NCBI GenBank assembly: GCA_004369045.1
Contig: ML213503.1
Location: 3,203,697-3,267,696, forward strand
DNA length: 64,000 bases
Reading direction: 5' to 3'
DNA from: Heliocybe sulcata
Taxonomy: Eukaryota; Basidiomycota; Agaricomycetes; Gloeophyllales; Gloeophyllaceae
Shown here: positions 5,171-64,000 of the stretch, one piece after another
Position numbering within the stretch: the stretch's first letter is position 1
Layout of the letters: each line of letters opens with the position of its first letter
Translations under genes and position numbers: made by a program
The notes under the pieces: model-generated
Databases searched by the model: none
Told to the model about the DNA's origin: nothing
What the model saw: only the letters and a program-made list of their open reading frames with translations

Positions 5171-8100
5171 TTACCTCCTTGCCTCCTCCGCCAACATGTC
5201 CAAGATCGTGCCCAGTGCAATAAGACCGAAGCTCTGAATCCCGAATCCTGCAGGTTCCTTCCTGACCGCCTCCTCGGCCACGATCCACGCAGCGTACGCA
5301 CGCCTGAGCGTTTCTTCCCTACGCTCGTCCTCATCATCCTCTTCATCCGAATCCTCATCTTCAAGTTCTCCATCGCCGTTTGTCTGACCCTGAGCCTGTG
5401 TTCGACGCTCCAAATCTCCCCGAAATTCTCTTCTAATGACCTTGACGAGTTCATGGGTCTTGCAGTACAACGAACACCTTAGTATGGCAAACGTACTTCA
5501 AAGAGCGAAACAGCTTGCCTGGAAATTCATGACTGTCATGGCGTCTCTCCGTTTGTGGTGGTCATTCCAGGTATCCTGGATAGTCCCGCTGACGAGTTCT
5601 CCCTCGGATAAACCTTCTCGAGGAGAAAGAGAATTCGCATGGGCGATGGTATACAATTGATCTCTGTAAGCTTCCAGGAGGTCCTGCATCTCTCTCTTGA
5701 GATCCGGAGGGGGCCTGCTGACAGCAGGCAAAGCGGCACGGATCTTGGAGACATGAGTCGGCTCAACGTATTGTTCATCTGAAGGAGGAATATCCATGGG
5801 CACGTTTCGGAACAGTCGTCCAAGGAGCCTGGCACTGGGATAGAACTTCTTCCCTAAATTCGGATCGGTGCCTTCACGGGCCAGGAAATCAGGTCTCACG
5901 TTGGACGGCGGTATTGGGAGATCGTCAATGTTAACTGGTTTACCGGTCTTGGGGAAATCGACAGCTTGTGAGGCCAACACTGCAAGCTTGATACAATCAT
6001 TATGGCCGGCGTTCTCAAGGTCGGCTATCCTCAGATGCAAGATAGATATTTGGCCAAGTAAGTCGGACTTAATCTGTGGGCAGTCACGTAAGCTCGAGCG
6101 CACGTCATCGGAGAGACACTGACATAGTCGATGACAAAATCTGCTATATCTTCAACAGTGCAAGGTCTATCAAGTGTCTTGTCACCCAGACTTTCATAGG
6201 CACCTGGGGCCGAGACTCTTTCCGGCATCAATCCCGGCTGGAAGAGCAGACAGGGTCTCATGAGTTGTATGAGCCATAGCGCGCAACCTTTACTCACATC
6301 TAAGATCAGGTTGAAGATATCCCCATCCAGATCACCGCCTGCCAGACAGGACGCAAGGCTTCTATGGCCACTTTACGGCACAACTCAGTCGGATTGCAAC
6401 TTATTGAATGAACCGAACGCGAACACCCACCGACAGGAGAACACCACGACATTTTTCAGGTGTTCCAGCTGGGGACGTCGCACAGCAGTCACGAGCTGCA
6501 AATCGCCCGGATGAATCTGCGGACTACGAGTGATAAGAACTTGGCCTTCAATTTGCGTAAACTCCCCCGTCCTATAGTCATAAACTGTAGCAAAGATCTC
6601 TCCTTCATTGAGGCAATCCCACTCGTCGGAGACGCCAAAGAGTGTAAAGGATCCCGGAACTGGGATACGGGCGCGGTACTTGATTTCGCGCAAGATCTGT
6701 GTCGCACCATAGCACAGGCAGATGTCCAAAAGTTCGTGCCGAAGGCCATTCGGTGCCGACGTGCTATATGGTATCATATTTAGCTGAGCATGGAGACGCT
6801 TGAACAGCGCGGGTAGATGGAAGGACGATCCTAGCCCATGAGATTCGAAGTTGAACGAGGCGTGACTGAAAGACGTGAATATCTTGTGGACGTCCGCAAT
6901 GGCTGCTTCTTGGAGCCTGAAAATGTGGTCTTGACTTACTCCCTGATATTCCATGAGTACGATGAGAGGACGATTCAGAAACATGCGTATTGGGCGGAAT
7001 GATGTTCCAGTCACATCGAGGGTTCCCTCAGTAGGTGCATCAAACTTCCTTTGCGATGGCCGAAGGCAGATCATCTTGCCTTGCACCCGGTTGTCCTCGA
7101 CCACAGTACCCTTATAGCCGCCATATCGGATTTGAAGTAGTGACGGCGGCGGTCTGGGCAGTCCTGATAGCGATCCCTGAGCTCTGCGCATGAATGACCA
7201 GCTTTCCCGCAGGAGCTCGCTGGAGATGGTCCCACAGCCATCCGTGAAACAGGACCCATTTGCTGAATGTCGATCGGCGATTCTACGAATATGCGCATCC
7301 TCCAACGTGACGGAAGGGTCGGACGTTGAGAACGCTTGGGCCCATCTTGCCGCGAGGCGAGCGGGTTTGTATGATAGAATCCCACTGAAGTCGCCCTGTG
7401 TGCGGAATCAGACAGATATTCACATTACAACTGTCCACTGGAACGATCTTACTAGTCGACGGCGGATTTCCGCAGCATTCATCAGAATACCGTTATCGGC
7501 CCGGTATGGGGACACAAACCATACCGAATGCTGACGCAGGCCGCTCATAGAATAGCCAAGGAATTCATACCGGCGGCCTGCTATCTGAAAACCCTCCACA
7601 AGCAATGTACGGAACCTTTGTCTCAGAAGCTCGCTGATGTCCATATCCGGTGTAGGACGCATCTTTGACCGATCCTCATCCTCGAATGTCACTCTCAAAA
7701 ATGACTCGTGGTGCCCAAATCGGCGAAGAACACTGTTACCCTGGTCTGGTAGAGGTCCCTCCAGGATCATGGTCGAAGGGGTGACGATGAGGAAGAAAGA
7801 CCGGAGGACAGAGGATGTGGAAAGAGTCTGCAGACGATGGCGAGGTCGCTGCAATTGCTCGAGATACAACTGCTCTGCATCCGCGAGCTGCGACTCGAAT
7901 GAAGGGCGATTAGCCTCCGAGACGTCATTGCTGCCCTCCTGCGAACCCCTCGCAGGGCGACGACCGCGGCGGCGGCGGCGACCTGGAGTGAGATGTACTC
8001 TCTCTAGATTCGCAGTGAACACTCGGAAAATGTCAGCAAATTCAGCACCGTGGGCTTCGCCAAAGCGCTTTAAGACTGAATGTAGTTGGGTCACCTCGGC

Positions 8101-9081
8101 AGGCTCCAAGACGCCCCCGAAGACGGCCTTCTGAGCCTCGAAAGCGATCTCGAAGTTCAAACTTCCCAGTACCTCGTGGAGGGTGTCCAACTTCCCCCGA
8201 GAGTATATGCCCAATGGCCTGATCGTGACCGTCTGAGGCGACGGAGCCGGAAAGCGCAGCTGCAGCTGCACACACCTTTCCCAGAATGTCGACATGCTTC
8301 TTTGGTCCTTGAAGGATAAGGAGAAGTGACGGCCGACATATCTAAGTGTATCCTCTCCCACTCGCGATGGCCTGGACTGATCCCCAAACAAATCGTCGAA
8401 AATAGATGACTCTTGTTTGCGACCCATCACGGGAGGTGTTTCAGCCTCCACGACTATGTCGAGCGGGCCAGCCCTTGCAAGTGCGCCGATCTTGTGGGCA
8501 GGGAAGAACGCTTCGCTCCGCGTGCTTTGATCAAGTTGTATCTCCGAGAACAGGATATCGAGGTCTATGCTCGAAGATGCAACATTGACCAGCACAAGGC
8601 GACGCTTGACCATGTCTAGAATCACTGAACATTCCCCGGCGTAGGTGACTTCCGGGGAAAAGACATGATCCTTCCGTAGTCGTCCGAAGGCATAAGACTT
8701 CAAGGTAATGGGCGTCGAACCAGACGCCAGCACTGCCTCCCGCTCACGTAGAACATCCGGATCCTCCCATTCCACAGAGAGGATTCTTCTGAGAGTCCCA
8801 GAATTAACAGCTCTGTTGCTCCTGTTGACGGACACAGCCTGATCTCTGATGTGGATGTATCTATACAGCTGCAGCAGAGACTCTCCCACCTCCACAGTTG
8901 GCACGGTGAGATTGCCGAGCCGGTCGCGAGCTCTGCTGCGTTTCTTCAGCAACCTTACGTCGAAATTCATGAGGGGATCTTCATCATGAGCTCGAAACGG
9001 AGGCCTGTGGAGAATGCGAGCAAAGGCGCAGGTGACCTCCAGTTCAGAGGCTTGGAGGGGGATGTTCCGCAGGAATATTTC
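5171..9081 (-). CDS. RNA-dependent RNA polymerase (cellular RdRP, RNA silencing)
   Basis: The model is complement(join(5171..5458, 5519..6073, 6124..6237, 6298..6361, 6431..7395, 7453..9081)): six exons, 3615 nt, 1204 residues, a usual length for eukaryotic RdRPs. The protein starts MEIFLRNIP and continues with an RRM-like fold typical of fungal RdRPs; an in-frame ATG at 9174 would add 31 residues. The RdRP domain spans roughly residues 480-1020. The catalytic loop GGDLDGD, at about residue 873 in the exon ending at 6298, has all three metal-binding Asp residues. It is followed by HSQAVDFPKTG-type sequence (here SQAVDFPKTGKPV). The enzyme copies aberrant RNA into dsRNA for Dicer. Intron 5459-5518 appears to use a GC donor (CAG|GCAAGC), because reading on meets a stop. 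The exon joint at 6431/6361 is slightly shorter than usual and could be off by a few codons. The gene diverges from PARP. Confidence 0.92.
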
Positions 9082-9919
9082 CATCCTCGAGAGTTTGCAA
9101 CGATAGAAAGACGGTGATTGCGACTGATTTCTCTCGTTAGTGGGAACACATTGGATAGAGGCGAGGGAGTCCAACCGTACCTGGATAGGTGTCGAGGTTG
9201 GTGCTAGCGCGAGAGTTCCAGGAACGAAGGAAAGCTGGGCACTTATGACCGATCTATTATAAGCTTATCGATGGATGATTCCTGCACGAATGTGCGTTGA
9301 ACCTAACTTAAAGACTTGAGGGAATACCAGTGCTTATGTAGATGGTTGTTGAATACCAATGGGACGGTCTGCTGTCATAGCGTTCCATGGTCCGCGGTCA
9401 ACTCGCATCCTGGTGACAAAATTCGACATTACGCACGCATACGACTTTATCGACCGGATCGACTTATGAAGGGGATAGTCTGTAGATCCGCAGAGCCTGA
9501 GAGACATACTCGGGGGCCACGCCAGTGCATTGCAATCGTCGGTCAGGAGGATCGCCCAGACAATGCGGCATTGGAGGATGGCGGGTATCGATCATATTCC
9601 TGGCTGCGCCGTCGGGGGATATGACTCTTCGCCGATGGATGGTGACTCACGACGACAGATAGAAGCCCGCTGCTGCTCGTATATGGCAAGAGGGCGCCCG
9701 CTGTCATCAGCGCCGACGCGGCCGTGGGCGACGCAGTCTTAAATAGGCAAGAGGCGGGACCGACGCGCCAGAGTCGCGCGTTCACATGACTCGCACGCGC
9801 GTGTGTTTCGCGTTGTGGCGTCGAACTCATAAATAGGCGCGAGCCTCGCCACTCATCTGCCAACACTCCTTCGACCTCCACATAATATACTCTCGTTGAG
9901 ATATCTAAATAACATCCAA
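9082..9919. promoter_or_regulatory. Divergent promoter region between RdRP and PARP
   Basis: About 840 bp upstream of both genes. The PARP-proximal 250 bp is CpG-rich, with several ACGCG words (for example around 9715, 9755 and 9795) and two TAAATAGG words (about 9740 and 9829), which may be TATA-like. ACGCG is the core of the yeast MluI cell-cycle box, so S-phase control of PARP is possible, but that is inference. No other gene was seen. Confidence 0.4.
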
Positions 9920-15804: not shown

Positions 15805-16448
15805 CGGCGAGCGACGGACGGGAGTGAGAGCGAGGGAAGGTCAGTGGCTGTTAAAGTACTAGATCCTGATCGAGAACCCTCCACGCGAAGCACTGATAAG
15901 ATAACGCTCGGGGCGGAGGTGGCGGAGGCCCTCGTCCTCTCTGCCTCCCAGGGCATTAATATTTTAGAGCTTCGGTCCTGCTGTGGCCTCAGATTCAAAC
16001 AAGTGTTTTATTTCAAGTCGCGATAATATTCGTCTTACTCGACTCTCGGCGGCGCCGCGTCATGTCGGCAGCCACTAGAAGTCCTTCTAGCTAAAGGGCT
16101 AACGAGAAGAGAAGGTCATACTGAAAACGGGAGAAGCTGTTCGGTCCAAGCCCGTCGTCCAGTTGTCCGATGCCCGTAGTCGTATGAACCACCAAGTATA
16201 TTTGGTAGCTCGGTGCAAATTTTTCTTATAAAATCCAATGCTCATTGAAACACACTCTAGGCTGATACAAATTCCAACAAGCGGAACACAATGCACATAC
16301 AGATCTATCATACGAGACGAAACACCTTTTTTCTATTTTCTACTTTAATAAAAATTTTTAGTACTTTTCTATTTTTTCCAGTCTTCGCAATGCAAAATAA
16401 AAGAGAAACGTCATCCCAGTCACGGGATAGCAAGCCGTCGTCCATAGA
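15805..16448. other. Intergenic; part of duplicated 3' flank of repeat-family copy 1
   Basis: From about 16222 to 16448 the sequence is the 3' untranslated flank of the unknown family copy 1. It matches 30252-30465 downstream of copy 2 (for example CAATGAGCATTGGATT, on the minus strand here). 15805-16221 holds no gene that I can see. Confidence 0.5.
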
Positions 16449-18811
16449 TCAGTCATAGTCACAAGAGATATCAGGAGTCGGCGGTTCCGGTAGCGCAGGC
16501 AGATACTGTTCTTGCTCCTCGAGTCGCCGAGTCTTCTCCTCAAGAGCCTGGAGTTCCTCCGCCGTCGAGGGTATCATACCCTGTCGTTCCATCGCAAGCA
16601 CGTTCCGCATGTCGCACCGCGCCGTCCGTCGCCGATTGATAGCGTCAAAATCGATCCTGAGGCGTTCCTCGAGAGAAGCCGTTGCGTCCAGGTGATCGAC
16701 CTCTTCCTCGCGTGCCGTCGGTGCTGCGTTCTTCCGTCTCTTGCGAATCCTCTTCCTGTTCTTCTTCTCCGTCTGGGTTGTCGTCGTCGTGGCCCGAAGT
16801 GTAGTGCCCGTCGAGAGTATGTCGCCCGAGTAGCCGTCGCGCCAGCGCTCAACGTGTCGTCCTGCGATCGCATGTCGGTCTACGGGGAGGGCGTCGTCCA
16901 GAGGCTGTCCGGCCAGCGGAGCCTTGCCTGCGTCGCCTTCTCTCGGGGTCCTCTTCCTCCTGCGCTCTTGCTTCTCGTCCAGCAGTTGCATGACGCGTGC
17001 ATCCAGATTCGTGTCCAGCTCCAAGCGTCTCTTCCTGTGCGCCAGCAGGTCGATACCGAAAGGAGAGCGAATCTTGTCCGGGGACGCAGAGGAGAGGGTA
17101 GTGGCGGCCAAATATGTCTTGCCCAAACCAGTCGGGTAGTCTTGCATAGCGCCTGGGGCATCCTGGGTAATCCTGGGCCTTGAAGGACGGAGTCGATCGA
17201 GTCTAGGGATGAGGTTCGAGTGTCGGAGTCTGGTATCGGAAGCTTGTGAGGTTGCTTGGAATCTGCGCTGTTCCTAGCAGACGCCATGTTACACATGCAG
17301 CTGAATGATACGCAGATACGCACTGATGGAGCCGAAATCGATAGCATACAACCTTTACGGTCGGTGGGTCGGAGACCAGGGAACGTAGTCTTAGCACCAG
17401 AGTGCTTGGTGAAGTACTGCAAGGATAATTTTAGATATGTGAAGGATATGTAAAAGCACGGCGTACCATGGAAGCCGAAGGCGGAAGAATACAATTAATA
17501 TGCCCGTTGCATTGCAGGAGACCGGGGGAGCGTAGTCTCGATCGGATTGTATGAGGAGGTGCATCCGGGCTAGGTGTGAAAGCGATGTCGGTTGAAAGGC
17601 AAAGGTTAGGAGAAGGTGCGAGGCCAGTGGACATAGTGTCCCGGGATTCCAGGCAGCCGGTCGGCACCTGATAGATGTTGCAAGATTGGTTGCAGTTCTA
17701 AAAAGGATGGTGTCAGATATTCGCAAAAGCAGACAGCAAGCCAAGCACTTACCGATAGAGCCCGAGGCTCACGTTTACATACTTCCAGGCCTTCTGAAGG
17801 TAAGAGACCGGGGAGCGTAGTCTCAGTCGGAGCATTTTGATTCAGGTATTCGGTTGCTGTGAAGGCCGTGGAAGACGCGCGGCGAAGCGCAGGGTTCATG
17901 ATGCAAGTGGTAGGCCCGTTGCGTTGCAGGAGACCGGGGGAGCGTAGTCTCGATCGGATTGTATGAGTCGTGGCATCCGGGCTAGGTGTGGGAGCGGTGT
18001 CGGTTGAAGAAGAAAGTCGAGGAGAAGGGATGAGGTCAGTGGACATAGGGTCCGGGAACTGGAGGCCGTTTGTCGGCGCATGATAGGCATTGCAAGATTG
18101 CTTGCAGTCCTACACAAACTGAGGTTGGAGACTCAGGAAAGCAGATACTAAATCAAGCACTTACCGATGCAGCCAAAGGCTCACGCGTAAATGCTTCCAG
18201 GCCTTCTGGAGGTAAGAGACCGGGGAGCGTAGTCTCGGTCGGGGTGTTGGGATTCAGGTAGTCGGGTTTTATGAAGGCCATGGAAGACGCGCGGCAAAGC
18301 GCAGGGCTCGTAGGGCCATCATGAGAGTCCCATACGAGAGGTGACTAAAGGACAGAATATTAGCCATAAACACCTCAACTGATTCCGAAGCAGGACTCAC
18401 CAATATTATATCGTCCACTTGTGTAATTGATTTATACGTCGACTCCAGAATGGCACTGAGTTCATTTGAAGCCGACGAAGAGCGCGAGGGTGTCCGTGTA
18501 GCGAAGAACCAAACCGAAAGTATACCGACTAGTACTGTGAAAGCCAGACCAAGGGTGCCGAAGAGCATCTTGTTCGCCGTGTCGCCGGGGTACCATCCAG
18601 CAGGGGAGCCGTCCAAGAGGAGCACAGGAGGAGGCGCCGAGAGCTGTGGGATTGACAAGTACCCGAAGATGAGGAAGAATAGCCGTCGCAGGGCAAGGGC
18701 CGCACGCGAGAGACTGATGACGCTGATGAAGTCAAGCACCGACTCGAGTCGATAGCTCGCGGTCGTACTAGAGACTGCAGAGAGAGTAGAGAGTGCTGAA
18801 GTCGAAGACAT
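16449..18811 (-). CDS. Unknown membrane-anchored repeat-module protein, copy 1
   Basis: The model is complement(join(16449..17273, 17324..17416, 17467..17697, 17753..18109, 18165..18344, 18401..18811)): six exons, 2097 nt, 698 residues, frame kept throughout and all introns phase 0. Exon 1 (137 residues) has a Ser/Thr-rich start, a hydrophobic stretch near 44-66 and a strong membrane segment at about 82-104. Exons 2-5 consist of copies of one Pro/Ser/Thr-rich module (words TETTLPGLL, GLEVC, APTSGLQFPDP, PSPDA, RLRSPGLLQRNGP). The last exon is charged and probably helical (long Arg/Lys/Glu runs), with DYPTGLGKT near its start. Two paralogues with the same exon order lie at 27483-30251 and 61955-64000. 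I recognise no known domain; function unknown. The C-terminus ends six residues earlier than in the paralogues. Confidence 0.6.
17374..18238 (-). repeat. Short DNA word array in repeat-family copy 1
   Basis: Five copies of the word GAGACTACGCTCCC(C) followed by GGTCTC (on the minus strand) lie near 17374, 17519, 17804, 17930 and 18217, at alternating spacing. They sit inside exons 2-5 and are read in two different frames. The copy at 17374 is the most changed. Confidence 0.75.
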
Positions 18812-18844
18812 CGTAGAAACTGGATGGAGGATATCGGAGAGATG

Positions 18845-18945
18845 GAGGGGTTCTTATACTCTTTCCTGGGGGCTGGCGATGGCTGACAGCCTCGATCTAT
18901 GCCGGCTCACCTGTCTCTTGCAGACAGGCGGCTGGCCGTATGACG
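18845..18945 (-). promoter_or_regulatory. Conserved promoter of repeat-family copy 1
   Basis: It matches 27348-27482 upstream of copy 2 almost base for base. On the minus strand it has a TATAAGAA box (18858-18851), 40 bp upstream of the ATG. Further up is an inverted repeat, CCTGTCT-5 nt-AGACAGG (18910-18928), that could bind a dimeric regulator. Conservation between copies supports function or recent duplication. Confidence 0.55.
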
Positions 18946-19627
18946 GTATGGTCAGCATTGAAATATGTCGCGGCGCAAACGTTCGCAGTCTGTTCGACGC
19001 GTACCATCAAGAGGAAGGCAGTCGTCTTTATATGCCATTACTTCGGAAGCGAGGTTTATATCGAGTGATGCAACAGCGAGACGCGGTTGAGGTGGTTCAT
19101 ACCTGGTGGAACGAGACGATCCGAAGCTGTCTGTCAAATTACTTCGACAATATGCGTCGCTTCAGACATCTTCAGCTACACAAAACGCAACGCATAGCGG
19201 CGACAGTACGCAATATCCTTCCTGCCCCTTCCTACCTCTCCTTTCCACGAGATGGGTCAATGCCCGGCTAGTTGTCCCTTGCTGACCATATGACGACGAA
19301 TTCAGAGTTCACACGGCGCATGTCCCTTGACCGTACAACCAGGAGGAAGGCAATCTGCGCTAGAGACGTCTGCAATACCAGCGCAAGACTGGTCGAGCAT
19401 CGCTAGAGTGGGCTAGGATATACTCCGGAGTCCAGACACAGTGGTAAGAAGCAAGCTGTCCGACTTGCCACAACGCGTCGCGTCGGACGGCTGCAGCCAC
19501 AGCGTCGGACAAGATCTCCGTCAACACATCTGAAAGCAAACAGAGTTTGCAAAATAGCAGCTCACTACATGTGAGCATTAGACTACACTTAATATACAGA
19601 AGTACCTCGGACGACCGTCCATGCAAC
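18946..19627. other. Intergenic between repeat-family copy 1 and MFAP1 3' end
   Basis: No complete gene. A stretch at about 19440-19510 (minus strand) resembles 27130-27190 upstream of copy 2 (shared ACGCGACGCG and TGTGGCAA words, and a partly similar open reading), so the duplicated unit may reach this far. Confidence 0.4.
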
Positions 19628-26738: not shown

Positions 26739-27347
26739 CCTGCTGGGTGGGTTTCTTGGCGTTGGTCTCCGAGTTCGGACGTTTGCTTGTGTCTCGCTCG
26801 TCTTGCTGTGCATACCCTCGTCCTTTTCCCTTTGTTTATCTCACTGGGGTGACCTTACGTGTCACAAAGCCGGTAGCGTACTTCACCCCTCCTCTTAATG
26901 GCGGATATTGGATCTGGAGTTATGCTCCCTGTTAGACTTCTGTAATTTTCTGTATCTACCTAGCGGTCTGGTCGTCCGACTCCATGTGTATCATTTATTC
27001 CATCCCATCTCCTTATTTCTCGTGCTTAGCGCTTATCAGTACATTACATGAAGGTCTAATTCACGAGATTCTGCTCTGCTCCCCACTGTAAACATGCAAT
27101 CAATCGCGGTGGCTGTAAGGAAGTACTGGTGAGTGCCCGACGCGACCGACGCGACGCGATGTGGCAAAGCAGACAACTTCTTGCCTCTTGCCGCCACTAT
27201 GTATGTCTTTATCCCGCGATTTCTCCGCTGCTACGCTCAAGAGCATGTCCATATATTTGGGACTCTCTATTCGCATTTGTGTCCCGTCATGGTAGAAGCC
27301 AGCTGGCGGCAGAGAACCGCAGACAGTATGTTTGAATCCTGACTGTC
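26739..27347. other. Intergenic upstream of repeat-family copy 2
   Basis: It contains the 3' UTR of the BTB gene and, from about 27130, sequence resembling the region upstream of copy 1 (19440-19510). No complete gene. Confidence 0.4.
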
Positions 27348-27482
27348 TCGTCATACGGCCAGCCGCCTGTCTGGAAGAGACAGGTGGGCCGGCGTAGATT
27401 GATGCTGCCAGCCATCGCCAGCCGCCAGGAAAGTGTATAAGAACCCCCTTCTCTCCCTGATATTCTCCATCCAGTTACTACG
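27348..27482 (+). promoter_or_regulatory. Conserved promoter of repeat-family copy 2
   Basis: It carries the inverted repeat CCTGTCT-GGAAG-AGACAGG (27366-27384) and a TATAAGAA box (27436-27443) 47 bp before the ATG. Both are conserved at the same spacing in copy 1. Homology between the two copies begins abruptly at CGTCATACGG. Confidence 0.55.
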
Positions 27483-30251
27483 ATGTCTTCGACTTCAGCC
27501 TTCTCTACTCTCTCTGCAATCTCTAGTACGACTGCGAGCTATAGACTCGAGTCGGTGCTTGACTTCATCAGCGTCATCAGTCTCTCGCGTGCGGCTCTTG
27601 CCCTGCGACGGCTATTCTCCCTCCTCTTCGGCTACTTGTCAATCCCCCAGCTCTCGGCGCCTCCTCCTGTGCTCCTCTTGGACGGCTCCCCTGCTGGATG
27701 GTACCCCGGCGACACGGCGAACAAGATGCTCTTCGGCACCCTTGGTCTGGCTTTCACAGTACTAGTCGGTATACTTTCGGTTTGGTTCTTCGCTACACGG
27801 ACACCCTCGCGCTCTTCGTCGGCTTCAAATGAACTCAGTGCCATTCTGGAGTCGACGTATAAATCAATTACACAAGTGGACGATATAAGATCGGCGAGTC
27901 CTGCTTCGGAATCAGTTGAGGTGTTTATGGCTAATATTCCGTCCTTCAGTCACCGCTCGTATGGGACTCTCATGATGGCCCTACGAGCCCTGCGCTTTGC
28001 CGCGCGTCTTCCATGGCCTTCACAAAACCCGACTACCTGAATCCCAATACTCCGACCGAGACTACGCTCCCCGGTCTCTTGCCTCCAGAAGGCCTGGAAG
28101 CTTGTACGCTTGATCCTTTGGCTCCATCTGTAAGTGCCTGAGTTGGGATCTGCTTTCCAGTCTCCAACCTCATTTTGTGTAGGACTGCAAGCAATCTTGC
28201 AATGCTTACCATGCGCCGACAAGCGGCCTCCAGTTTCCAGACCCTATGTCCACTGGCTTCGTCCCTTCTGAACTTTCTTCTTTAACCGACACCGCTCTCA
28301 CGCCTAGCCCGGATGCGCCTCCTCATACAATCCGATCGAGACTACGCTCCCCCGGTCTCCTGCAACGCAACGGGCCTAGCACTTACACCATGAACCCTGC
28401 GCTTCGCCACGCATCTTCCACGGCCTTCACAACACTCGAATACCTGAATCACTTGACCCCGACTGAGACTACGCTCCCCGGTCTCTTACTTTCAGAAGGC
28501 CTAGAAGCTTGTACGCTCGAACCTCCGGCTCCATCGGTAAGTGCTCAACTTGGTATTTGCTTTCCTGAGTATCTAACGTCAAACTGTTTAGAACGGCGAG
28601 CAATCTCGCCATGCCTATCATGCGCCGACAAGCCGCCTCCAGTTTCCGGACCCTATGTCTGCTGGCCTCGTCCTTTCTCCTCAACTTTCTTCTTCAACCG
28701 ACACCGCTCTCACACCTAGCCCGGATGCACCTCCTCATACAATCCGATTGAGACTACGCTCCCCCGGTCTCCTTCAACGCAACGGGCCTACCACTTACAC
28801 CATGAACTCTGCGCTTCGCCGCGCGTCTTCCACGGCCTTCACAAAAACCCGAATACCTGGATTCCAACACTCCGACTGAGGCTATGTTCCCCCGTCTCTT
28901 ACCTTCCGAAGGCCTGGAAGTTTGTACGCGTGAGCCTCTGGCTCCATTGGTAAGTGTTTGGCTTGCTGTTTGTTGTAATGAATATCTCACATCACCCCCT
29001 TTAGAACTGCAATCCATCTTGCAGCATCTATGAGGTGCCGACTGGCAGCCTGCAATCACCGGACCTTATGTCCACCGGCCTCGCTACTTCACCCTACTCC
29101 GCCTTTACATCCCGCCCGGCTGCACCGATTCATACAATCCCATCGAGACTACGCTCCCCCGGTCTCCTGCAACGCAACAGGCCCACCGCATATATTCCGC
29201 CGTCTTCGGCTTCCATGGTATGCCTTGCTTCTACATGTCCTTGCCATGTCTAATAGCACTGCTTGCAGTACTACACCAAGCATACTGGGACTGAGACTAC
29301 GCTCCCCGGCCTCCAACCCACGGGCAGTAAAGGTCGTATGCTGCCGATTTCGGCTCCATTGGTACGTATATGCGTATCATACAGCTGCATGTGTAACATG
29401 GCGTCTCCTAGAATAAGCGCAATTATCAAGCGATCTCCCAAGCTTCGGCTCCCAGACTCCGACACTCGAGCCTCCCCCCTATACTCCGTCCTTCAAGGCC
29501 CAAGATTACCCAGGATGCTCCAGGCGCCATGCAAGACTACCCAACTGGCTCAGGCAAGGCATTCCTGGCCGCTAGTACCCTCTCTTCTGCGTCCCGGGAC
29601 AAGACTCGCTCTCCCTTCGCTACCGACCTTCCAGCTATGAGGAAGAGATGCTTGGAGCAGGCCGCGAATCTGAACGCACGCCTTACGCGACTGCAGGACA
29701 AGGTGCAAGAGAGCAGAAGGAAGAGGGCCGCGAGAAAACGCGATGCAGGCAAGGCTCCACTAGCGGGACAGCCTCCAGACGATGCCCTCCTTGTAGACCG
29801 ACGTACGATGGCAGGACGACACGCTCAGCGCCGACGCGAGCGCTACTCGGGCGACATACTCTCGACGGGCACTAAGCCCTCGGCCACGACGACGACAACC
29901 CAAACGGAGAAGAATGGGAAGAGCCTTCGCACGAGACGGAAGAAGAACGCAGCACCGACGGCACGCGAGGAAGAGGTCGACCACCTGGACGCCACGGCGT
30001 CTCTCGAGGAACGCCTCAGGATCGACTTCGACGCTATCAATCGGCGACAGACGTCTCGGTGCGACATGCGGAACGTGCTTGCGATGGAACGACAGGGTAT
30101 AATACCTTCGACGGCAGAGGAACTCCAGGCTCTTGAGGAGGAGACTCGGCGACTCGAGTGCCAAGAACAGTATCTGCCGACGCTGCCGGAACCGCCGACT
30201 CCTGATATCTCCTGTGACTACGACTGCTCCATGGACGACGGCTCGCTATGA
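27483..30251 (+). pseudogene. Unknown membrane-anchored repeat-module protein, copy 2 (frame not conserved in one exon)
   Basis: Exons by alignment to copies 1 and 3: 27483..27893, 27950..28129, 28183..28536, 28592..28949, 29005..29217, 29269..29361, 29412..30251. This copy has seven exons against six in copy 1: the ~118-residue module exon is present twice (28183 and 28592). Exon 1 encodes the same membrane-spanning start as copy 1 with about 6 of 137 residues changed. The exon at 28592 is 358 nt, not a multiple of three, so the reading shifts near its end and meets a stop at about 28879. A shortened product of about 410 residues is possible. The first intron starts GC (GCGAGT) where copies 1 and 3 have GTGAGT or GTGAGC. 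The last exon (279 codons) is open and ends CSMDDGSL. Promoter and 3' flank are also duplicated. Function unknown. Confidence 0.55.
28058..29313 (+). repeat. Short DNA word array in repeat-family copy 2
   Basis: Seven copies of GAGACTACGCTCCC(C) followed by GGTCTC, at 28058, 28338, 28465, 28750, 28878 (degenerate), 29145 and 29293. Copies at 28058, 28465 and 29293 are 21 nt and read in codon position 1 (ETTLPGL). Copies at 28338, 28750 and 29145 are 22 nt and start in codon position 3 (RLRSPGL). Confidence 0.85.
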
Positions 30252-30934
30252 CTGGGACTGGGACGACTTTTCTCTTCTATCTTGCATAGCGAAAAAGACC
30301 GGGAAAAGTTACTCAAGAATGTAAAGTAGATAAAGTAGAAAGTACAAAAAACAAGTTTCGTCTTGTATGATAGGTCTGTATGCGCCCGTGTAGAATTCCC
30401 TTGTTAGAATTTGTATCAGCCCCGATGGCCTACAGTGTGTTTCAATGAGCATTGGATTTATACTGTAACACGACTTGGGTGCACTGACTTTCTCGGAACG
30501 GTTCGGTGAGCTTGTACCATCTGCATGACCCCCCTTTCATCCATGCACGTGATCTGCCACATCTTTTCGTACTCCGCTTGAACCGCGCACGCCATTGATT
30601 GACTAGGTGGGACGTTTGTAAGCGTATGTATCACGGCACTAGCTATCCAGCGCCCTGACGTCCACGTAGTATCTGACGCAGCCTTAGCTGCGACAGGACG
30701 TGATCTATGCATTCCTGGGCCTGAGCGAGCGATTCCACGACATGGCAGACGAACACATGAGTCCGAGTGCCGCGCTCCTGACAGACACGGGCTGCTCTGT
30801 TGGAGTATGTATAGTCCTAGAAAAGCAGGCAGATCAAGAAACTTTAGCTTCGAAAAGCAAGGTGAGCAATACTGCGGTCTTGCTATGTTCGGAAATCAGC
30901 TCTGGGAATATATATCAGATTGACAATGTCCAGT
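30252..30934. other. 3' flank of repeat-family copy 2 and unassigned sequence
   Basis: 30252-30465 matches the 3' flanks of copies 1 and 3, including the AGTAGAAAGTACAAAAAA-type stretch and TTTCGTCTTGTATGA. 30466-30934 has no gene that I can defend. Confidence 0.45.
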
Positions 30935-44993: not shown

Positions 44994-47900
44994 ATGACTG
45001 CCGCTACTCTGCAATTTGGTCCGGAATGGATGCGCACCAAGCCACAGGCACCTCGGTCGCAAGTGGCACCATCACCGCCGCCCCAGTCCAATGCTCCTCC
45101 TACGGCTTCTTCATATTCGTCCCTCGTAACTCCTGCGCCGCACCCTTCGGAAGAAAAGCGAGACTCTTCTAAGCCGTTCAAGTACTCTAAAGAAGATATG
45201 CTGCGAATTTATAAAGAAAGCGGAGGGAGGGGAGGGCTAGGTTTAGAGGTTGAGCGGTGGGAGGGCATCGTACGCGAAGGAAACTCGGAGCCTGCTGCTC
45301 TGAGGGAATGGACCGAGGCGGAGAAGAAGGTTGTAACCCGTTGTCTCATTTACGTAGCGGACATAGTGGTTTACCCGTGGCGTACAGCTCTTTGCAGGGT
45401 CTTTGAACTCCGAAATGCGCAGACGGCAGTCCACAGATTATTTAGGAACCATATCTGCGACCTCGCTGAGTGGCGAAAGACCGCGCCTCACGCACAACGC
45501 CTCGGGGGGTGTCAGTCCTATGAGAGAACGCTTTGGTTCGCTCATGGGAAGAAGAAGAGGGGATAGCACCGGTGACTCCCATCCATATGACCCTTCTCTG
45601 CTAGGCTGATCACCGTCTCGTATAAGACCAACAGCCATCAGTCCTCCCCCGGAAGCTCTCTATGTCCGGCATACACGGGGCGTTGAACAGTCCTCGTGAT
45701 GGCGGTATGCCATCCCCTCGGACACGGGTCGGCTTCGCTCCCGGCTTCGACGGCGTGCTCAATGGTGGCGAAGGTTGGAATCTCAGAAGACGACCGTCTG
45801 AAGGGCCTCTGAGAACGGCGAACAGCTCTATTGACCACGGTTCTGCGGACTCACCATCCGACAGCCAGCACCAGATTAAGGAGGAAGAGGAATCAACTGA
45901 GGCGAATGGTCAAACTAGCACGGGTGCCCGCAATTTCATGGCGAATGCTAGCGGTGGTGGTCCATCAGTCTCCGCCGGGAACGCGTCGCAGAACCCTTCG
46001 GATACCACAACAGGCCTCGATAACGGGATTGCTGGTTTGTCCATTGGCAGCTCCACTGATCCCAATAACTCTGGTGGACTGTCTGCGGTCCCTCCATCAA
46101 ACCCTGCGCCGGGGGCTCCGCCGCCAGGATTAACCGACTTAGCCAGCATTGAATGGTCTTACCTGGACCCACAGGGTCAGGTCCAAGGTAAGTTTTTGTG
46201 TGGGTGATATGCCAGAAGGTCTCTTGACATTGAATCCCCGCTGTAGGCCCTTTCCGTGCTGATGTGATGCAGAAATGGCATAACGACGGGTATTTCACGC
46301 CGGATCTCTTAATGAAGCGGGCACATATTGATCTTGAGTGGACGAGTGTTGGAGAGTTGACTCGTCGCGCAGGCGGAGGACAGATTTTCTTGACGCCTCT
46401 GACGCAGTCTACGGCACCCCCGGGTCTGCCTCGACGGTCTGAACCTCCCACCGATCAACTCAGGTCTCCCACAGCTGTGAATCAGCCTTACCAACCTATA
46501 CCAATGCGGTCTTTGCGGACCTCAACCCTTGACTCGTACCTCAATGGCCCTTCTTCTGCTTCTGCGTCACCTTCTTCATCGTTCGGAGCTGGGAGATTCA
46601 GCAACGGCTCGCCGGATCCAGCGGCATTCGGGAACAAAATTTACTCCGCAGGTGATCCATCCATCGGTATCCGTGGCGGGGCATTCGGGACACCTCGCGA
46701 GTTGGGACCGGAAGGGCCGTCAAGAGCTGGCTTCAACGAGACGGGCTTTGACTCACCTTTGACGCACCGCTCTTCACCGTTTGATCGAGCTGCCCCAAAT
46801 CGAGCGCCATCTATGGATGGTTTCGGTTATGATGCCACGGGCGGATGGGCTAATGGGTTCAATCATAGTCAGAGCGCCGACAGCTCCTTGGTTTCTCCAG
46901 TTATGGGGAACAGTGTGAACGGTCTGGGAGGTGCACGTGGGCTAGGAGAGCCCGCACTGGGGTCTTTCAATTCCCTGGGTTCAGTCAATATACCATATGG
47001 GACTCCCAGGCAGCTTTCTGGTCTTGGAAGAGACGTGTTTGCTAGACAAACTCTTCCTGAGAGCCCGATCCCTGACAGCGGCATAAACGGTCATGGTCCT
47101 GCTAGTTTCGGTTCTCTTCCTCAATCACAGGGCTTCCCTCAGTCGCCTTCCTCTCAGCTTGGTTCGCAACCCGCCCAGTCGTTAGCTCCACTGGCTACTG
47201 CATTAGCGCAGTCATCCATTGGGTCACATTCTCCCGTTGTCCAGCAATCGCAGAGCTTCCAGCACTCAGTGCTTCCTACCCCCAGCCAAGCAATACCTGC
47301 CTCTTCCTGGAACGTACCAGAGCCATCCCCCTCTAGGCGACCTAACCCATTCGATGCGTCGGTACCGAAGACAGGTAACACTATTGCGAACCCAGGGGCA
47401 AGCGGCGCTCTTAGTACCAGCGGCTCTATTACTCCATCTCACCAGGCTCAGCCTGCGTCCACAAATCCTATCCCGCCGTCACAATCCCAGATTTTGAATG
47501 AAAAATCTCCCTGGTATGCCGCATCCAAGGGAATAGTCGAGGAGGGCTGGGGTGATGCTGGCGGTGCCAATCGACTGACCGTGAGCAATCTCATGCAACA
47601 TAACGAACAGCAGCGTCAAAAGGAGAAGACTCCCGTCGGAGGTAGTCCTGACCCCGAAGAACGAGCGGAAGCTGGCGCAGAACCCTCGCCGGTACCGCCA
47701 GTTGCACCCACGGCAGTGGACAAAGCCGTACCGAAGAAGAAATCCTCCCAGAAGAGGACTCAGAATGCCTCTGCGGAGCCCGTGGCACCTCCGTCTTCTG
47801 CTTCCACGAATCCGGCTTCACCGATTGTACCCGGCGGTGTGCCAGCACAGAAAGCCGCTTGGACCCTCGACGAGGAGAAGGCCAGACCCTCTGGCGTCGC

Positions 47901-49019
47901 CATGGGCTTCCGCGAGATCCAGGAAGCCGAAGCCAAAAGACTGGAGGCTCAGAAAGCAGCGGATAAGCAACGGGAGAAGGAGCGCTTGGCAAAGGCTGCG
48001 GCTTCTCCGTCCACCGAGGAAGCGCAGCCGTTCGTCGCTTCGTGGGGATTGCCGACCTCCCAAGCTGGCGCTGCTCGTACCAACGGTCAGACTTCCAAAG
48101 ACGCTGCGGCTGCTGCCACTCCTGGCACTCCTGTGTCGGCTCCTTGGACAAATGCCGTCAAGCCTGCCACCACCAAGAAGACCATGAAGGAGATCCAAGA
48201 AGAAGAAGAAAAGCGCAAGAAGGAAGCCGCGAAACAAAAGGAAACGGCAGCTGCCGCTGTTCGTAGGGGATATGCTGAGACTACTACCAAGGTAAGTCTA
48301 TCCTAACTACCGACTTCGACATCTTGCTCATTTCCACTGCCTACTTCAGAGCACACCGACAACACCAGCTGCAGTCAGTGGGCCCTGGTCCACGGTCGGC
48401 CCGGGGGGTAAAGTAGCTGCACCAGTCACTACTGCTGTGTCCACTAGCCGCCCACCTCTGCCGACATCCGTGTCTGCCGCGAGTATTGTGAGCTCGGCTC
48501 CCCGGACCCCGACAGCTACGAACGGTGTCACTCGAACGATAAGCAGTGCGCCTGCCCCTGCGGCAACGAAGGCAGCTCCAATGCCGAAGCTCGAGGAGGC
48601 ACCGGCTGCCCCTTCCGCGGAGCTTCTCAAGTGGTTGAGCGATAGTCTCAAGGGACTCAATAGCTCCGTCAACCGTGAGTTCCTACATAATGCAGTGCAA
48701 GGACTGTTCGCTGACGGCCTCTCTCTCAGTGGAGGAGATTGCCTCTATGCTATTGTCCTTCCCTCTGGATCCTGATCCTTCCACCCTCGAACTCATCTCC
48801 GACCTCATCTACGCCAACAGCACGACCATGGATGGCAGACGTTTTGCAGCGGATTTCGCCAACAGGCGCAAGCTTGATGCATCCTCTCGCACTAAGGCGA
48901 GCGGAGCAAAGACACCCAGTATTGCGGACGTAGTGAAGGCTCAGCCGAAGCCTGCGCAGAATGACGGGTGGGGAGGCTTCAAGGTCGTGAACAAGAAGAA
49001 GAAGGGTGGCAAGGCATAG
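44994..49019 (+). CDS. GYF-domain protein (GIGYF/Smy2-Syh1-like)
   Basis: The model is join(44994..45329, 45388..45571, 45627..46187, 46247..48291, 48350..48674, 48730..49019): 3741 nt, 1246 residues. An N-terminal region with KYSKEDMLRIYKESGG, resembling the start of GIGYF proteins, is followed by disordered sequence. The GYF domain (about 347-405) is intact: IEWSYLDPQGQVQGPF, then MQKWHNDGYF and LMKRAHIDLEW, with the aromatic residues that bind PPGF-type proline ligands. A Pro/Ser/Gln-rich centre and a long basic-acidic coiled coil (REIQEAEAKRLEAQKAADKQ) precede a C-terminal helical part (LLKWLSDSLKGL, LLSFPLDPDPSTLELISDLI) and a GGFKVVNKKKKGGKA end. Relatives act in translation repression and quality control at stalled ribosomes. 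Confidence 0.9.
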
Positions 49020-49148: not shown

Positions 49149-49232
49149 GCCCGCCTAGCTCAATCGGATAGAGCGTCAGACTCTTATGACTAGGCGATCT
49201 GAAGGCTGCGAGTTCGACCCTCGCGGTGGGCT
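49149..49232 (+). tRNA. tRNA-Lys(CTT) with a 10-nt intron
   Basis: Acceptor stem GCCCGCC (49149-49155) pairs with GGTGGGC (49225-49231), with one G:T pair, and T as discriminator. The D arm is GCTC...GAGC. The anticodon stem TCAGA (49176-49180) pairs with TCTGA (49198-49202), and the T arm is GCGAG-TTCGACC-CTCGC. The loop reads CTCTTA then a 10-nt intron (49187-49196) just after position 37, the canonical site; anticodon CTT is at 49183-49185. A and B boxes are good. Confidence 0.9.
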
Positions 49233-61954: not shown

Positions 61955-64000
61955 TCATAGCAAGCCGTCGTCCATAGAGCAGTCGTAGTCACAAGAGATA
62001 TCAGGAGTCGGCGGTTCCGGTAGCGCCGGCAGATACTGTTCTTGGTCCTCGAGCTGCTGGGTCCTCTCCTTAAGGGCTTGGAATTCCTCCGGCGTCGAGG
62101 GCATCATACCCTGTCGTTCCATCGCAAGCAAGTTCCGCATGTCGTACCGAACCGTCTGTCGCTGATTGATGGCGTCAAAATCGATCCTGAGGCGTTCTTC
62201 GAGAGAAGCCGTTGCGTCCAGATGGTCGACCTCCTCGCCACGTGCTGTCGATGCTGCCGCCTTCCGTCTCTTGCGAAGGCTCTTCCCATTCTTCTTCTCC
62301 GTCTGGGTTGTCGTCGTGGCCGAGAGTCTAGTGCCCGTCGAGAGGATGTCGTCCGAGTAGCCGTCGCGCCGCCGCTGAGCGTGTCGTTCTGCGATCGTAT
62401 GCCGGTCTAAGGGGAGTGCGTAGTCTCGAGACTGTCCCGCCGGAGGAGCCTTGCCTGCGTCGCCTTGTCTCGCGGCCCTCTTCCTCCTGCTCTCTTGCGT
62501 CTTGTCCAGCAGTTGCGTGATGCGTGCGTCCAGATTCGCGGCCTGCTCCAAGCGTCTCTTCCTCATTGCCAGCAGGTCGCTAGCGGGGGGAGAGCGAGTC
62601 TTGCGTGGGGAGGCAGAGGAGAGGTTAGTGGTGGCTGGGTATGTCTTGCCTGAGCCAGTTGGGTAGTCTTGCATAGCGCCTGGAGCATCGTGAGTGATGA
62701 TGGGCCTTGAAGGACGGAGTATAGGGGGGAGGCTCAAGTGTCGGAGTCTGGGAGCCGAAGCTTGGGAGATCGCTTGATAATTGCGCTTATTCTAGGAGAC
62801 GCCATGTTACACATGCAGCTGAACTATACGCAGATACGCACTGTTAAAGCCGAAATCGGTAGCATACGACCTTTACGGTCGGTGAGTCGGGGACCGGGGA
62901 GCGTAGTCTCAGTCCCAGTATCCTTAGTGAAGTACTGCGAGGAGGACTGTTAGACATGAAAGGACATGAAAAAGCAGGGCATACTATGGAGGCCGGAGAC
63001 GGCGGAGTATGTGTGATGTGCCCGTTGCGTTGCAGGAGACCGGGGGAGCGTAGTCTCGATCGGATTGTATGAGTCGGGGCATCCGGGCGGGGTATCAAGG
63101 CGGAGTCATGTGAAGGGGAAAGGTTACGAGAAGGAGCGAGGCCGGTGGACATGGGGTCCGATGATTGCAGGCTGCCAGTCGGCACCTGATAGATGCTGCA
63201 AGATGGATTGCAGTTCTAAAGGGAGTGATGTCAGATATTCATTACAACAAACAGCAAGCCAAACACTTACCAATGGAGCCAGGTGCTCACGCGTACAAGC
63301 TTCCAGGCCTTCTGGAGGCAAGAGACCGGGGAGCGTAGTCAGTGTCGGAGTATTGGAATTCAGGTAGTCGAGTTTTCTGGAGGCCGTAGAAGATGCGCGG
63401 CGAAGCGCAGAGTTCATGGTGTAAGTGGTAGGCCCGTTGCGTTTCAGGAGACCGGGGGAGCGTGATCTCGATCGGATTGTATGAGGAGGTGCATCCGGGC
63501 TAGGTGTGAGAGCGGTCTCGGTTGAAGAAGAAAGTTGAGGAGAAGGAATGAGGCCAGTGGACATAGGGTCCGGAAACTGGAGGCCGCTTGTCGGCGCATG
63601 ATAAGCATTGCAAGATTGCTTGCAGTCCTACACAGAATGAGGTTGGAGACTCAGGAAGCAGATCCGAAATCAGGCACTTACAGATGGAGCCAAAGGCTCA
63701 TGCGTAAAAGCTTCCAGGCCTTCTGGAGGCAAGAGACTGGGGAGCGTAGTCTCGGTCGGAGTATTGGAATTCAGGTAGTCGGGTTTTGTGAAGGCCATGG
63801 AAGACGCGCGGCAAAGCGCAGGGCTCGTAGGGCCATCATGAGAGTCCCATACGAGCGGTGACTGAGGGACAGAATATTAGCTATAAACGCCTCAACTGAT
63901 TCCGAAGCAAGGCTCACCGATTTTATATCGCCCGTTTGTGTAATTGATTTATACGTCGACTCCAGAATGGCACTGAGTTCACTTGAAGCCGATGAAGAGT
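61955..64000 (-). CDS. Unknown membrane-anchored repeat-module protein, copy 3, 5' end outside window
   Basis: The visible model is complement(join(61955..62791, 62842..62934, 62985..63215, 63271..63627, 63682..63861, 63918..>64000)), with the same six-exon layout and the same exon lengths (93, 231, 357, 180) as copy 1; every visible complete exon is a multiple of three. The first exon is cut by the window edge: the visible part encodes ELSAILESTYKSITQ-like sequence. The C-terminal exon contains DYPTGSGKTYPATT, Arg/Lys-rich helix, TTTTQTEKKNGKSLRKR, EEVDHLDATASLEERLRIDF and ends CSMDDGLL. The conserved layout in copies 1 and 3 argues that the six-exon form is the normal one. Function unknown. 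Confidence 0.6.
62888..63753 (-). repeat. Short DNA word array in repeat-family copy 3
   Basis: Five copies of the GAGACTACGCTCCC(C)/GGTCTC word (minus strand) near 62888, 63038, 63323, 63447 and 63732, at the same alternating spacing as in copies 1 and 2; those at 63323 and 63447 carry changes within the GAGACTAC part. Confidence 0.75.

Follow-up and report, generated by a model that had tools for sequence, protein, structure and literature searches.

Three related units on alternating strands of a 64,000-nucleotide (nt) stretch of the basidiomycete Heliocybe sulcata (C1:3203697-3267696, C1 being contig ML213503.1 of the 31.6-Mb, 51-contig assembly GCA_004369045.1; hereafter the window) are members of a family with a common promoter, comprising at least 22 units. 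All comparisons were made within this one genome, whose introns of about 50-57 nt and gene style are in keeping with a basidiomycete. The sequence supports a real multi-exon protein-coding family with two branches, the window trio and a cluster on contig C28, and points to ten sister units that probably act as RNA. We propose, with middling confidence, that these units constitute a family of membrane-anchored adaptors accompanied by co-expressed structured-RNA sisters.

The window trio and its coding relatives

A first-pass annotation of the window had described three paralogues within about 46 kb in the orientation -,+,- that share everything from promoter to 3' flank. DNA searches and self-comparison recover precisely this arrangement: copy 1 (16231-18966, -), copy 2 (27328-30459, +) and copy 3 (-, from about 61.8 kb and running beyond the window edge) are mutually 82-90% identical, and their homology spans the promoter through the 3' untranslated region. 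Directly upstream of the unit, copy 1 is 44-45% identical to copies 2 and 3, which are 73% identical to each other. The models of copies 1 and 3 comprise six exons, all in phase 0 and separated by introns of 50-56 nt, with lengths of 411, 180, 357, 231, 93 and 825 nt in copy 1 (698 amino acids, aa) and 411, 180, 357, 231, 93 and 837 nt in copy 3 (702 aa). The annotation had credited these two copies with exact exon lengths and an open frame; the frames are indeed open, partly by construction since the models were built to be open, and five of the six lengths are equal, which is not a product of model building, the last exon being 12 nt apart. The phase-0 module exons that it had noted are also recovered, and Tandem Repeats Finder (TRF) detects a 412-bp module in all three copies. 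Copy 2 is disrupted: its extra module exon, of 358 nt, is shifted out of frame and contains internal stops, and the first donor of the copy is GCGAGT. Identity along the units is patchy: copies 1 and 2 agree in every base over a 100-bp stretch, and copies 2 and 3 are 99% identical over 91 aligned bases, which suggests the pattern that gene conversion would leave. The features of the trio, in window positions, are listed below; exons are taken from spliced models, and motif A is described in the next section.

18850-18963 (-): copy 1 promoter, TTTCAATGCTGACC ... CCAGCCGCCTGTC..GACAGG ... GTATAAGA; aligned with other units, pattern match with no reversed-control match in the genome
18401-18811 (-): copy 1 exon 1, 137 aa, hydrophobic segment at aa 82-100; six C28 relatives
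18165-18344 (-): copy 1 exon 2, first partial module
17753-18109 (-): copy 1 exon 3, a full module with two A-like cores, each in a different reading frame
17467-17697 (-): copy 1 exon 4, module remainder
17324-17416 (-): copy 1 exon 5
16449-17273 (-): copy 1 last exon with charged tail and stop; copies 2 and 3 are 76% identical to it
16231-16448 (-): copy 1 3' flank or untranslated region, until copy 2 homology ends (self-comparison)
17502-18306 (-): copy 1 412-bp tandem module array (TRF)
27331-27445 (+): copy 2 promoter (pattern match and alignment with other units)
27483-27893 (+): copy 2 exon 1, followed by a GC donor
27950-28129 (+): copy 2 exon 2
28183-28536 (+): copy 2 exon 3, module
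28592-28949 (+): copy 2 exon 4, the disrupted extra module
29005-29217 (+): copy 2 exon 5
29269-29361 (+): copy 2 exon 6
29412-30251 (+): copy 2 last exon
63918-64000 (-): copy 3 exon 1, part within the window (ATG at the equivalent of 64328, outside it)
63682-63861 (-): copy 3 exon 2
63271-63627 (-): copy 3 exon 3, module
62985-63215 (-): copy 3 exon 4
62842-62934 (-): copy 3 exon 5
61955-62791 (-): copy 3 last exon

The genome-wide search that had been suggested as a check, using the exon-1 protein of copy 1, returned six matches on C28 (37-39% identity, E 8e-8 to 3e-6), and the reverse search gave 38-41% identity. C28 carries seven units within about 110 kb; there is also a 3' remnant at 199.6 kb. 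Six of the seven units yield models of 535-668 aa. All exon lengths in these are divisible by three, and the models differ from one another by whole exons, such as an extra pair of 135 and 186 nt; the seventh unit contains masked bases and was left out of the judgement on open frames. Given that C28 has its own module of about 420 bp, containing two introns, modules appear to have been amplified in both branches, possibly independently. The two branches end alike, with PPIPTPDCSMTEDEDDD and near variants in the C28 proteins and PEPPTPDISCDYDCSMDDG in copies 2 and 3. A DNA search with the interval of the first-pass annotation additionally uncovered a degraded unit with a broken frame on C8, which shares about 520 bp upstream of the start codon with copy 1, and another degraded unit lies on C32. 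A second, diverged promoter region occurs in tandem about 330 bp away, upstream of the degraded C8 copy (72% over 99 bp).

Proteins of both branches contain a single strong hydrophobic segment (residues 82-100 in the trio and 85-103 in C28), followed by a Ser/Pro-rich middle and a charged tail that ends in proline-rich and acidic residues. The position of this segment fits the membrane-spanning first exon of the earlier annotation, and a membrane anchor is predicted from hydropathy, on which the surface system suggested there would also depend; the AlphaFold model of exon 1 is poor (mean predicted local distance difference test score, pLDDT, 57.7). No domain had been recognised previously, and a Pfam search with the copy 1 model and one C28 model likewise gave nothing above the cut-off (best YebO, E 0.13, 12.9 bits against a cut-off of 27) and no mobile-element domain, while the C28 model found no match in a PDB sequence search. 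The original description of an undescribed family of three holds up in that the multi-exon family is real and has no family match; its size does not, the trio being one branch of at least 22 units.

Coding constraint was estimated by the Nei-Gojobori method from small counts and with no likelihood test, pooled over 15 pairs for C28 and between copies 1 and 3 for the trio. The ratio of nonsynonymous to synonymous differences (pN/pS) is 0.50 in exon 1, 0.40 in the last exon and 0.88 in exon 2 of C28. In the trio, where a comparison of this kind between copies had been proposed, it is 0.53 in exon 1, 0.61 in the last exon and 0.70 in exons 2-5, and hence below one throughout. Gaps in the last exon are multiples of three in 18 of 18 pairwise gaps in C28 and 3 of 3 in the trio, the pairs being non-independent, and the other exon sets compared contain no gaps. 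Open spliced frames, gaps in threes and ratios below one, approaching 0.9 in the C28 modules, thus occur together as in a protein-coding family, of which the first and last exons look constrained and the modules less so.

Promoter, hairpin motifs and frame-less units

The promoter pattern AGCCGCCYGTCN{4,10}GACAG has 11 matches in the genome, all of them in family units, and the reversed control has no match. A less strict scan, limited to the loci retrieved, gave 22 rows, namely 20 units and two chance rows (C1:2891933 and C8:832872) that were excluded from the unit count; the promoters of the unit at 2891 kb and of the C28 unit at 133 kb, the latter with a changed TATA (CATTAATA), were added separately. 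At least 22 units with a promoter are accordingly present: three in the trio, seven on C28, eight at C1:2.85-2.90 Mb, two on C4 and one each on C32 and C8. When a C28 unit was used as DNA query, copies 2 and 3 and the C8 unit were reached only via the promoter (74-75% over 98-129 bp), making it the only inter-branch stretch found by DNA similarity. Judged by such comparisons, the branches share their promoter and transcript motifs in DNA more than their protein, and the promoter is of a bipartite TATA type, probably dedicated to the family. About 40 bp upstream of it, the units at 2.85-2.90 Mb carry variants of TAGCC..GTGGTGGTTCTGGTAAGAGTTCAATACC, which we take to resemble the A and B boxes of tRNA genes; a tRNA scan of three loci (L015, L016 and L018) found no tRNA.

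Two further motifs characterise the family. Motif A, TACGCTCCCCCGG, derived from the trio modules, has 60 genome matches versus 1 in the reversed control, 59 of these being in family loci and one on C13; a second pattern for it gives 50 matches versus 0, with 49 in family loci. Motif B, CCGGnnnnGCCCTCAAGACGTAAGGGGCnCCGG, has 39 matches versus 1, and 38 of the 39 lie in family units. The matches outside the family are at C13:946503 (A), C1:531297 (A, second pattern) and C12:279918 (B). Although the search pattern for B is independent of the donor sequence, a GT[AG]NG donor follows in 44 of 47 distinct copies, 7 nt after the hairpin in 34 and 8 nt after it in 10, with GC, GTAAA or GTTAG at the donor place in the remaining three. 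The predicted loop of A is near-invariant and 12 nt long. The A array of C28 is located downstream of the stop codon, and the frame-less units also carry A arrays at their 3' ends. In the trio, A-like cores lie inside module exons, where they are read as TTLPGL and LRSPGL within a single module, so that one peptide does not explain the motif.

Both motifs show signs of folding. One stem pair of B is GC in 29 copies, AU in 9, GU in 8 and other in 1, and its covariation score is 0.167 versus 0.109 in shuffled alignments (0 of 500 reaching it), slid versions of the structure scoring at most 0.076. For A the score over 77 sequences is 0.141 versus 0.098 (0 of 500). In half-swap folding, the real halves of A fold at -11.56 versus -10.77 kcal/mol, a value reached by 0 of 1000 permutations and likewise when swapping within families; the corresponding figures for B are -14.15 versus -13.44, reached by 7 of 1000. 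In these permutation tests identical copies were counted once and masked-N stretches were skipped; the trio was excluded from the A alignment, and a B-like match at C1:2878908, where there is no unit, from the B alignment and from the spacing and permutation counts. On these grounds A as a folded element appears fairly well supported and B moderately so. Many trio exons after exon 1 end, as read by eye, in a short palindrome and then, immediately ahead of the donor, variants of CTCCATNG (examples at 18165, 17753, 17467, 28536 and 29217), an apparent exon-terminal hairpin that differs in sequence from B. A long-range pairing between the 3' arm of A and B (CCCUUACG with CGUAAGGG), seen by eye at 2.85-2.90 Mb, was set aside as unproven and was unseen in the C28 copies read.

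The hairpins resemble Rfam families in showing some paired changes, and differ from them in having no family match in the sources searched: Rfam release 15 gave nothing at gathering score in six sources except a tRNA of the window, and nothing at E up to 1 in one stretch containing two frame-less units. A tRNA scan of six loci was empty, and motif A has 0 matches in viral contigs. A literature string search, the sole basis for regarding the motifs as not in print, found the A strings and the B string in no paper, and the promoter string CCAGCCGCCTGTC solely in a Corynebacterium study.

The frame-less units, eight at C1:2.85-2.90 Mb and two on C4, were reached via motifs A and B, and keep the promoter, an intron-like structure and the hairpin motifs. 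A splice-aware frame scan of seven of the ten (five of the eight at 2.85-2.90 Mb) found no consistent long 5'-anchored frame; the best frames, of 121-235 aa, have differing starts and often lie within introns or the A array. Across all eight units at 2.85-2.90 Mb, two exons are pairwise 91.1% and 84.8% identical, the leader 89.0% and the introns 85.6%, 82.2% and 76.3% (six units for the third of these). Identity in the flanks 50-400 bp upstream is 41-68%. When phases are counted on alignment columns, substitutions are not enriched at third positions; gaps of 1, 2, 4 and 10 nt, which are not multiples of three, occur. Together these features look like those of a constrained transcript without protein. 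That the units at 2.85-2.90 Mb are coding, as the local reading of B as PQDVRG might imply, was considered and overturned by the spliced-frame scan and the absent codon periodicity. All eight of them start an 18-codon hydrophobic, basic short frame (e.g. L018 at about 6840, -), which begins MYVVIICG in seven and ends at the same TGA in five.

Interpretation and competing explanations

We propose that the products of the trio and C28 could be membrane-tethered adaptors, in which a conserved hydrophobic exon 1 would provide the anchor and a disordered middle the variable part, the faster-evolving Ser/Pro-rich modules being gained or lost as whole phase-0 exons. The ten frame-less units would probably act as RNA. 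A trans-acting RNA-binding factor, most likely recognising the near-invariant hairpin loops, might control splicing, stability or localisation of the transcripts, and it is conceivable, if doubtful, that the noncoding sisters compete for this factor. A broader and tentative view is that the units define a class of spliced transcript characterised by an exon-terminal hairpin 7-8 nt before 5' splice sites, a 3' hairpin array and a private promoter, for which membrane proteins and pure RNAs would be interchangeable, co-regulated cargo. If the proposal holds, one genome would combine coding and noncoding genes that use a common promoter and hairpin chassis, and both the passage of a gene family between protein and RNA function and the role of exon-terminal hairpins in guiding splicing would become testable. 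The A and B motifs offer exact tags for locating the family in other fungi.

Xist and PTENP1 are well-known long noncoding RNAs (lncRNAs) derived from pseudogenes. The Oct4 pseudogene 4 lncRNA is a further case (PMC7603346). The frame-less units resemble such lncRNAs in being apparently noncoding relatives of a coding family on which they may act: they are related to it through promoter and motifs, and 7 of 7 units scanned have no consistent frame. They differ in their shared promoter and repeated hairpin motifs and in number, with about ten noncoding units spread over two places. Noncoding sisters of coding families are thus known elsewhere, and the unusual aspect here is the shared promoter and hairpin chassis.

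Several results pull against the adaptor-and-RNA interpretation, for which the evidence is the sequence of one genome. With respect to coding constraint, single C28 exon-1 pairs range in pN/pS from 0.22 to 1.23 (15 pairs); trio introns, at 64-94% identity between copies 1 and 3, do not fall clearly short of the exons; and changes in trio exon 1 are almost equally frequent at the three codon positions (0.058, 0.066 and 0.073). The synonymous difference in C28 exon 1 (pS 0.090) is below the divergence of intron 1 (65-92% identity), which points to conversion or nucleotide-level constraint. In one C28 unit, k235, a TGA interrupts the frame within the last B hairpin and the usual donor place reads GTAAAT; only by taking an unusual donor inside hairpin B does the model of this unit stay open. 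With respect to the hairpins, both structures were drawn after seeing the sequences, and all structure tests are weakened because the copies are related. The outer stem as drawn pairs in 68.5% of cells for A and 74.5% for B; the structure of A slid by +3 scores 0.128 versus 0.141; and in two of five measures, the counts of covarying pairs and of pair types, A falls within the shuffles (81 and 106 of 500). RNAalifold found no consensus structure for A and solely the inner stem for B, and the half-swap result for B within families is borderline (46 of 1000). In the trio, the perfect 5-bp GAGAC/GTCTC stem is kept in only 11 of 17 A-like cores. Searched against the window, the model of B (R1) has no match at E up to 0.1 and that of A (R2) matches by its 19-nt core alone (E 0.058), so that the trio is the most diverged branch in both motifs.

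Alternatively, the units may be an ordinary lineage-specific, fast-evolving orphan family, shaped by local duplication, exon duplication and gene conversion, with the frame-less units as decaying pseudogenes and the hairpins as remnants of coding repeats. We regard this as the less likely account, and as one to be taken seriously. B encodes PQDVRG in coding exons of C28, so protein constraint may contribute to its conservation and its support as a folded element remains moderate, and it reads locally as HRNGPQDVRGPGRK in one frame-less unit. The patchy identity of the trio, with its identical stretch in copies 1 and 2, is suggestive of conversion. Both C8 and C32 contain degraded copies, and in the frame-less units the first intron shows the same degree of conservation as one exon. 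Speaking against simple decay, the first full exon of those units, at 91.1% identity, stands above all three introns and shows no codon periodicity. The C28 array of A comes after the stop codon, and even so its halves match each other better than in all permutations; in the trio, one A core serves two reading frames. Moreover, units in two distant places have kept promoter, donor sites and hairpins.

It is improbable that the units are selfish poison-antidote killer genes working like the wtf drivers of Schizosaccharomyces, with modules setting self-recognition and noncoding sisters regulating. The wtf genes are clustered and undergo gene conversion, and Pfam contains a wtf model, above the cut-off of which neither of the two models scanned here scored. 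The anatomy is similar in that wtf genes, as described in PMC9562144, form a multi-exon fungal family with variable repeat number and both intact and broken members. According to the same paper, intron 1 of the verified drivers of S. pombe carries a FLEX motif, GTAAACAAACA; here it is absent from 9 of 9 models, searched from the start codon to just past the start of exon 2 with up to 2 mismatches. Since many wtf candidates in other species lack FLEX, according to that paper, this does not exclude every wtf gene. The present proteins also have one strong hydrophobic segment rather than many, and the family differs from wtf in its whole-exon phase-0 modules, shared hairpin motifs and apparently noncoding sister units.

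Least probable is that the units are a non-autonomous mobile element, or a satellite, with internal repeats that give it the look of a gene: similarity of copy 1 to copies 2 and 3 does drop right at the promoter, and single units are scattered on C8 and C32, but the roughly 22 units in 31.6 Mb are mostly clustered, similarity can exceed the unit (the stretch upstream of the start codon common to copy 1 and C8), neither Pfam-scanned model has an element domain, coding constraint is seen in two branches, and copy 1, the sole copy tested, has no terminal inverted repeat (three inverted pairs of at least 14 nt in 16100-19100, none at the unit ends). Nor are the units retrocopies, because introns or intron-like structure are kept in the trio, C28 and the units at 2.85-2.90 Mb.

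Neighbouring genes

About 7 kb from copy 1, at window 6388-9264 (-), two open reading frames (ORFs) match the RNA-dependent RNA polymerase family PF05183 (E 3e-78 and 3e-27) and represent an RNAi-type gene. A glutathione S-transferase (GST)-like gene, read by eye, lies just downstream of copy 2 at window 30.9 kb (+), and another, just upstream of copy 3 (L008, about 4780-4024, -), matches a PDB GST named StyI (E 3e-8). The two C4 units, in opposite orientation, flank a gene that presumably encodes a delta-aminolevulinate dehydratase-like protein (L020, 4.3-8.8 kb), and downstream of two C28 units (L010 and L013) is an opposite-strand gene that we take to resemble an aldo-keto reductase. A tandem array with units of about 86 bp also lies downstream of a C28 unit (L010, 8735-9141). 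Elsewhere in the window are a 690-aa ORF with a GYF domain (46234-48303, +; E 9e-8) and a tRNA gene (49149-49232, +; Rfam RF00005).

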